From Gallionellaceae bacterium (lineage in GTDB: Bacteria; Pseudomonadota; Gammaproteobacteria; Burkholderiales; Gallionellaceae): a stretch of DNA of 35,078 nucleotides. Below the pieces are notes generated by a model. It was not told where the DNA came from and made no database searches. It worked only from the letters and a program-made list of their open reading frames with translations. The stretch is taken from assembly GCA_006218055.1 (NCBI GenBank), contig VBWD01000023.1:1-35078 (forward strand), in the 5' to 3' direction. The position numbers and the translations under genes were made by a program. Shown here piece after piece: positions 12,905 to 13,407 of the stretch (position 1 is its first letter; each line of letters begins with the position of its first letter).

Positions 12905-13407
12905 TGGGCCTTCTGCTGTGCGCGACGCATCGCAAAGAAATCAGTGAGGGCCTTGCCACATTCGTCGGCCAACACCCCACCTTGGATGGTCGCATGGTGA
13001 TTGAGACTGATAGTAACCCCCTCTCCCTCTGGGGGAGGGTTGGGGTGGGGGAATCTTCCGAATAGGTCGAGCACACTGCCGGCAGCCCCCGTCTTATAGT
13101 CCTGTGCCCCGAACACGACCCGCGCGATACGTGCATGGAACATGGCACCGACACACATCACACAGGGTTCCAAGGTAACAAAGAGTTCACAGCCCACCAG
13201 ACGGTAGTTACCGATGCGCTGTGCCGCATCGCGCAGTGCGGCGATCTCGGCGTGGGCGGAGGGATCGTGACGCGAGATGGGCGCATTGAAACCGCGACCG
13301 ACGATCTCACCATCCTTCACCACCACCGCACCCACTGGCACCTCGCCAGCGAGTGCCGCTTGCTCGGCAAGCTTGAGCGCCTCGCGCATGAAATCGACAT
13401 CCAGCAT
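12901..13407 (-). CDS. tadA: tRNA adenosine(34) deaminase
   Basis: 168 residues. TadA converts A34 of tRNA-Arg(ACG) to inosine. The zinc ligands and the proton shuttle are visible: the His and Glu of SAHAEIAAL (about residues 52 and 54) and the cysteines of LEPCVMC (82 and 85). After SVLDLF, relatives go directly to the LNHHA motif. Here about 14-17 residues ([17 protein letters not shown] region) come in between, encoded by a palindromic repeat inserted in frame. The ATG at 13407 is preferred to the TTG three bases upstream; the ribosome site is weak. TadA is essential in most bacteria, so this insertion must be tolerated unless another copy exists. Confidence 0.92.
13016..13052. repeat. Palindromic repeat inserted in frame in tadA
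   Basis: The arms CCCTCTCCCTC and the GGGGGAGGG that follows form a hairpin, with a GGGGTGGGGG arm beside it. It is a member of the CCCTCTCCC/GGGAGAGGG family seen in yejE and yejA. It encodes a Pro/Gly/Glu-rich loop between the TadA core and its C-terminal helix. Confidence 0.75.

Follow-up and report, generated by a model that had tools for sequence, protein, structure and literature searches.

The Window and Its tadA Gene

The window, meaning the whole 35,078-nucleotide stretch of Gallionellaceae DNA analysed here, carries a tRNA adenosine deaminase gene (tadA) that is open over all 169 codons and is lengthened between the peptides SVLDLF and LNHHA. The features of the window are as follows.

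12901-13410, minus strand: tadA, tRNA adenosine deaminase with an in-frame insert; 169 codons; PF14437 and PF00383; Z 27.6 to 1z3a
13006-13059, minus strand: segment unlike empty relatives; 18 residues in place of AQSQ, net +42 nt
About 13015-13053, no strand assigned: palindromic repeat copy of family A; hairpin core 13019-13040
13252-13254, minus strand: His codon of the HAE zinc motif, intact; invariant alignment column
13153-13164, minus strand: CVMC of the PCxxC zinc motif, intact; invariant alignment column
9544-9582, no strand assigned: family A copy, in frame, between two cysteines of dppA (8632-10923, minus strand)
7020-7113, no strand assigned: inverted pair of family A copies, in frame, in dppC (6195-7661, minus strand)
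25424-25511, no strand assigned: more family A-like copies, outside the listed genes
12425-12904, minus strand: L,D-transpeptidase-like (LDT) control gene, overlapping the end of tadA; insert in 0 of 55 loci
13459-13977, plus strand: bcp-type peroxiredoxin control gene; 8-residue insert in 2 of 134 orthologues

Compared with the empty genes L005 and L007, whose proteins are 94-95% identical to that of the window, 54 nt replace 12 nt at this point (+42 nt, +14 amino acids), and 12 residues of the 18-residue segment are encoded by the palindromic repeat. An earlier note on this DNA had proposed that a repeat hairpin adds a loop to TadA between SVLDLF and LNHHA, and this is borne out above chance: at up to three mismatches, the family A pattern gives 44 matches in the 1.66-Mb draft genome vs. 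five for the reversed control. The gene is not interrupted, as the note had put it, but lengthened, and its frame is open throughout. Nor does the loop lie directly next to the C-terminal helix; when aligned with E. coli TadA, the insertion site falls at about H122-G125, in the beta4-beta5 loop upstream of the last strand. A review locates H122 and H123 close to the dimer interface and assigns two ligand-binding regions to the beta4-beta5 loop (PMC10586758). Both zinc motifs, HAE and PCxxC, are kept, in agreement with the note, and both PF14437 and PF00383 score above cut-off.

The tadA gene is normally essential. No second tadA, for which the note had advised a search, was found in the window's draft genome (1.66 Mb, 71% complete), where the other deaminase match is RibD. 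Over the 139 codons outside the loop, the window gene differs from L005 by 45 synonymous and two non-synonymous changes (dN/dS 0.01); against L005 and L007 the ratio is 0.010-0.017, and over 15 pairs, 11 of them filled vs. empty, it is 0.01-0.16. Judged from its sequence, the window tadA looks functional and the enzyme would be active, and in the filled genomes the repeats apparently have not broken TadA.

The AlphaFold model of the window TadA (mean pLDDT 94) has the TadA fold, matching 1z3a, which is E. coli TadA (Z 27.6, rmsd 1.2, 151 aligned), and 2b3j (Z 26.9, rmsd 1.3, 150 aligned), with the strands RFP and TIS pairing to close the insert. In the model of L159, E-L pairs with L-R to close a 55-residue loop, the middle of which mostly has a pLDDT below 60; in the core, the majority of ten-residue blocks exceed 90. 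The insert borders are thus modelled as pairing in a short two-strand stem, an agreement between models that is not independent evidence because the AlphaFold alignments contain other filled TadA sequences.

Family A and Its Other Copies

Family A has a unit of 39 nt that is short, palindromic and present in many similar copies, as is typical of REP-type repeats. Thirteen of 38 distinct copies lie inside open frames that extend 60 residues or more to each side of the copy, two of them in one hrpA, and some of these frames may not be genes; the tadA copy, with 121 and 37 residues on its sides, is one more inside a frame. Pfam supports six copy-bearing frames outside the window, which we take to encode HrpA, ThiL-like, aminotransferase, TgpA-like, DinG-like and Mfd-like proteins, as well as dppA and dppC within it. 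The further in-frame cases that the note had reported within 6 kb are indeed present in dppC and dppA, and relatives lack the insert at each of these two points; at the dppC insertion point, 32-34 residues are absent from L039, L041, L043, L047, and L052. Inspection by eye revealed no common flanks beyond the repeat among family A copies elsewhere, and no target duplication at the tadA insert site. A known RNA family was considered for the window and rejected, as there are 0 Rfam matches in it at the gathering threshold. Elsewhere in the window, 28695-28971 and 33878-34155, which lie 5.2 kb apart, are about 82-83% identical and perhaps belong to paralogous genes.

Recurrence at One Site of TadA

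An empty TadA was used to search 158 genomes of the Gallionellaceae, bacteria akin to the iron-oxidising Gallionella and Sideroxydans, and 144 matched. The 14 of 158 genomes that gave no match include four of 94 near-complete ones, so that lost or broken tadA copies lie outside the count; in two further genomes (G010 and G086) contig ends left the site unjudged. An insert at exactly this site is present in 30 of the 142 judged genomes. All 30 filled sites were read: 29 are open in frame to LNHH, and the 30th (G171) meets a contig end. The remaining 112 genomes are empty by match length, and part of them were also read. Among 122 distinct representatives, including outgroups, the loop has exactly 9 residues in 93, 10-14 residues in none, and 15-58 residues where filled. 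The only other internal insert seen in the family is one of six residues elsewhere in the TadA of L179 (GSAPQGDNVLNVF), whose genome (G162) is counted as empty at the site. As a separate observation, repeat-like peptides (such as LPSPHPSPSGRGG) lengthen the TadA frame C-terminally in L008, L019, L032, and L068, and in L163 a repeat-like peptide also extends the start of the tadA frame.

Beyond the Gallionellaceae, match length shows an empty site in 135 of the 138 genomes of the order's other families that gave a match (five of the 138 were read, plus G039). Outside the family, G191 carries a repeat-like insert, and G243 and G283, which belong to one genus, have a longer loop that matches no repeat. 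Wide conservation of the loop, which the note had named as evidence against its reading, is therefore absent, with near relatives and nearly all of these other-family genomes empty; a loop conserved in the order at large was rejected on the same count.

Kinds of Insert and Their Borders

At least three unrelated kinds of repeat occupy the TadA site, namely palindrome families A and B and one heptanucleotide. Family A is found in the tadA of the window, G024, G013, and G019 and, in another reading frame, in that of L174, L166, and L163, where it is recognised by DNA matches to copies in the window's genome. A third palindrome family had been considered for the inserts of L174, L166, L163, and L206 and was rejected, since at the DNA level these inserts agree with copies of family A from the window's genome; the unrelated kinds therefore number three and not four. 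Six filled genomes each contain 16 to 60 matches to the pattern of family B, a longer palindrome, where controls gave 0-1. The heptanucleotide repeat CCACTNA fills other tadA sites and is abundant in several filled genomes; its pattern has 0 matches in G000 (the window's genome) and G077, and its reversed control is uninformative because the array is periodic and the pattern matches its own reversal. Arrays of CCACTNA occur at many places in G085, G134-G137, G145, and others, and are in frame in tadA. By eye, a second repeat seems to lie inside the first in the loops of L159, L166, L168, and L170.

In the limited DNA that was searched, 17 of 33 long loops (30 from the family and three from outside it) have a further copy and 16 do not, and none of their codon-shuffled controls does (0/33); L157 and L183 have one match each, of 17 nt. 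Decay or ordinary extension may account for the loops of L165, L177, and L180-L183 and, outside the family, of L207 and L208. The first border residue is Gly in 28 of 32 filled vs. two of 70 empty loops. Of the 32 filled loops, 30 have L, F, I, C or M as the third residue, and 26 have V, I, L or A as the last but one. L207 and L208, which come from another family and match no repeat, show the same borders as the filled Gallionellaceae loops, which suggests that the shared borders reflect structural convergence.

The earlier proposal that surviving copies are selected for frame and loop position stands in part: 29 of 30 inserts are in frame at one site. However, other kinds of repeat land there too, and same-site recurrence is also found in DppA and Bcp, so that the site is more remarkable than the repeat family.

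Control Genes and Trees

By one method applied to the same 55 loci, TadA has eight inserts and LDT has none. Across twelve other genes of the window, among them LDT, there are three inserts in 273 gene-locus pairs (p 4e-5 for 8/55 vs. 3/273), of which one is repeat-derived (DppD of L045) and two lie near an N-terminus. A GNAT insert in L077 falls outside this control through its 50% identity limit, and DppA and DppC were left out because their window copies carry inserts. DppA has inserts in six of 25 loci, four at one site and two at another. The first site, between the same two cysteines, holds differing inserts in the window, L080, L086, and L084, and the second is filled in L035 and L070. 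As DppA is thus also often filled, TadA stands far above most genes tried but is not alone. For bcp, the same 158 genomes yielded 134 orthologues (133 long, one partial), in which an insert was defined as at least 8 residues. The two found, GPSTGLGT in L268 (G075) and GPSTELRT in L269 (G068), are similar and share one site in different genera; bcp therefore shows the same phenomenon at low frequency. The contrast with TadA (30/142 vs. 2/134) has a p of 7e-8 when genomes are treated as independent of kinship. A peptide in the TadA of L157, PPSTGSGQ, is related to the Bcp inserts. If tolerance were the sole cause, most genes might be expected to be filled as often, yet most are not.

Quick tree searches were made on 417 nt or 146 amino acids, and their counts are of changes, not of gains. 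The tadA DNA tree has 16 changes between filled and empty, at least nine of them forced by starred (well-supported) branches, against a shuffled mean of 27.5; the protein tree without the loop has 15, at least three of them forced by starred branches. Repeated gain is favoured because the empty loops are all of one length and the repeats are unrelated.

DUF559 Genes Bracketed by Palindromes

REP-RAYT (TnpA-REP) pairs are dispersed palindromes, often in inverted pairs, that bracket a gene. The present palindromes are likewise dispersed, often in inverted pairs, and bracket a gene, but that gene encodes a DUF559 nuclease, and no Y1 (RAYT) transposase was found in the window's draft genome (71% complete). 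Across the genus, a Y1 gene is present in 20 of 34 genomes. DUF559 (PF04480) genes bracketed by CCCTCTCCC-, CCCTCCCCC- or similar palindromes occur among L211-L240 and at L270 in the genus and among L241-L257 in other families of the order. The window's genome has three DUF559 genes: one lies inside hrpA next to family A copies, the second (L270) has another palindrome on both sides, and the third (L271/L214) has no stem in the available flank, one side of which is cut at about 50 nt. In the first, a whole DUF559 domain is in frame inside the helicase HrpA with family A repeats flanking it (L126:864-3020; G000:C90:12995-13315), and long open frames with a DUF559 domain are seen in other genus genomes too.

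All 17 full-length stand-alone DUF559 loci of the genus have a perfect 9-bp stem no more than 250 nt from the domain (34 stems), with a density around these loci of 4.0 per kb vs. 0.09 further out; TadA loci, serving as a control, had stems at two of 27, two of 29 having been left out for length. Five of the 30 loci in the genus set were too short for the main count and were examined separately; of six loci outside that count, either short or added later, a stem is present in five (L224, L215, L218, L232, and L270) and not in L214. In other families of the order, stems accompany 11 of 16 strong DUF559 matches (one of 17, L242, was left out for length) and two of ten weak ones, and three of eight domains embedded in long frames have them. 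Over 34 genomes, with kinship uncorrected and with some of the copies being the brackets themselves, the density of family A copies per Mb rises with the number of DUF559 genes (rho 0.66, or 0.62 allowing for Y1); the correlation with Y1 number is 0.46.

This association allows that DUF559 may be the mobiliser of the palindromes. Just as RAYT moves REPs in trans, the DUF559 nuclease is proposed to do so here, and the palindromes could then be non-autonomous offspring of DUF559 (Vsr-like) elements, moved in trans, for which the TadA loop would be a natural landing site; this proposal is tentative, and the odds are somewhat against it. Among the papers listed that mention DUF559, none deals with repeats, as far as titles and the beginnings of abstracts reveal. 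If the bracketing of DUF559 genes by palindromes is confirmed, this domain of unknown function would acquire a role, and the biology of REP-like repeats would include an enzyme of a second kind.

Explanations for the Repeated Filling of One Loop

Taken together, these observations are best accommodated by a model, to which a probability of about 0.6 is given, in which the beta4-beta5 hairpin of TadA is permissive, so that in-frame repeat insertions survive there and the same loop has been filled several times by unrelated repeats. According to this model, a copy of a dispersed palindromic (REP-like) repeat lands in frame in the loop, which would extend as a hairpin and leave the deaminase core undisturbed; frame-keeping insertions would therefore survive at this point, and most of those elsewhere in the small and indispensable tadA would be lost. 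The inserted repeats may later decay, nest or expand, and their borders would come to read Gly-[Glu/Asp]-hydrophobic at the start and hydrophobic-Arg at the end, which form a short two-strand stem. It would thus be structural tolerance, rather than a DNA target, that sets the site.

An alternate scenario, which we consider unlikely, holds that one old loop extension was inherited or recombined, that its repeats were later exchanged or nested, and that the empty genomes regained a short loop by recombination. It would explain why sites with different repeats share the borders G-[ED]-[LFI] and [VIL]-R outside the repeats, and why the heptanucleotide-type loops look interrelated and group in part on the tree. 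However, the window TadA remains 94-95% identical to the empty L005 and L007 with flanking codons of its own lineage, all empty loops are of one length, at least nine changes are forced on the DNA tree, and the borders of L207 and L208, from another family and with no repeat match, point to convergence. Less probable still is a hotspot at the DNA level, by which the sequence or structure of these tadA codons attracts mobile repeats. Such a hotspot would fit the placement of nearly all internal TadA inserts at one site (30 vs. the single six-residue insert of G162) and the same-site recurrence in DppA and Bcp. However, the repeats that arrive are unrelated and include a heptanucleotide array, with no evident common mechanism, and the lack, by eye, of both common flanks among family A copies elsewhere and a target duplication at the tadA site speaks against it as well.

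It has also to be asked whether the insert is adaptive, with long loops favoured since they tune the TadA dimer or its tRNA contacts. The frequency of filling relative to bcp and the position of the site near residues that a review (PMC10586758) places by the dimer interface would be in keeping with this, but the inserts range from 15 to 58 residues in length with no common core sequence, most relatives do without one, and the tip is disordered in the longest modelled loop; we regard adaptation as improbable. Finally, a relic gene backed by a functional second tadA elsewhere, or an error of assembly, might be suspected in a genome that is only a 71%-complete draft. A relic or duplicate was rejected on the single copy in that draft and the dN/dS of 0.010-0.017 against L005 and L007, and since the one-contig genome G024 (99% complete) also has a filled tadA, an assembly error is not the cause; the chance that either accounts for the insert is very slight. 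The permissive hairpin thus remains the preferred reading.

Relation to Known Repeats and Significance

That palindromes can lie in frame within proteins is established. Rickettsia palindromic elements (RPE) are 105-146 bp long and lie in frame inside conserved genes, and a guanylate kinase with an RPE is reported to be active (PMC2229807). The present repeats are like RPE in being palindromic and in frame inside conserved genes, but the element is 39 nt rather than 105-146 bp long and presumably differs in sequence, and the bacteria are different; unlike RPE, unrelated kinds of repeat here share one site of one gene. The GTAG/CGTC REP elements are short palindromes found inside genes, including those of tRNA-modifying enzymes, and in two Xanthomonas species recB holds different REPs "about at the same site" (PMC3733652). 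The recB case concerns one gene in two species, whereas TadA involves 30 genomes and at least three kinds of repeat. Family A does not fall within the GTAG/CGTC class, as these tags lie near an end in six of 38 copies vs. 17 of 38 when the windows are shifted by 100 nt. Among the matches listed, in a search that most subscription journals lie outside, no literature on this tadA feature, or on it in Gallionellaceae, was found. What is new is the repeated filling of one loop by unrelated repeats.

The Gallionellaceae thus provide a replicated natural experiment, in which one loop of an indispensable enzyme has received several unrelated repeats and close empty relatives are available for comparison. 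TadA is the enzyme that underlies adenine base editors, and this site in it is likely to be permissive for insertions; the recurring borders suggest what is required at the edges of a loop if foreign DNA is to be turned into protein.
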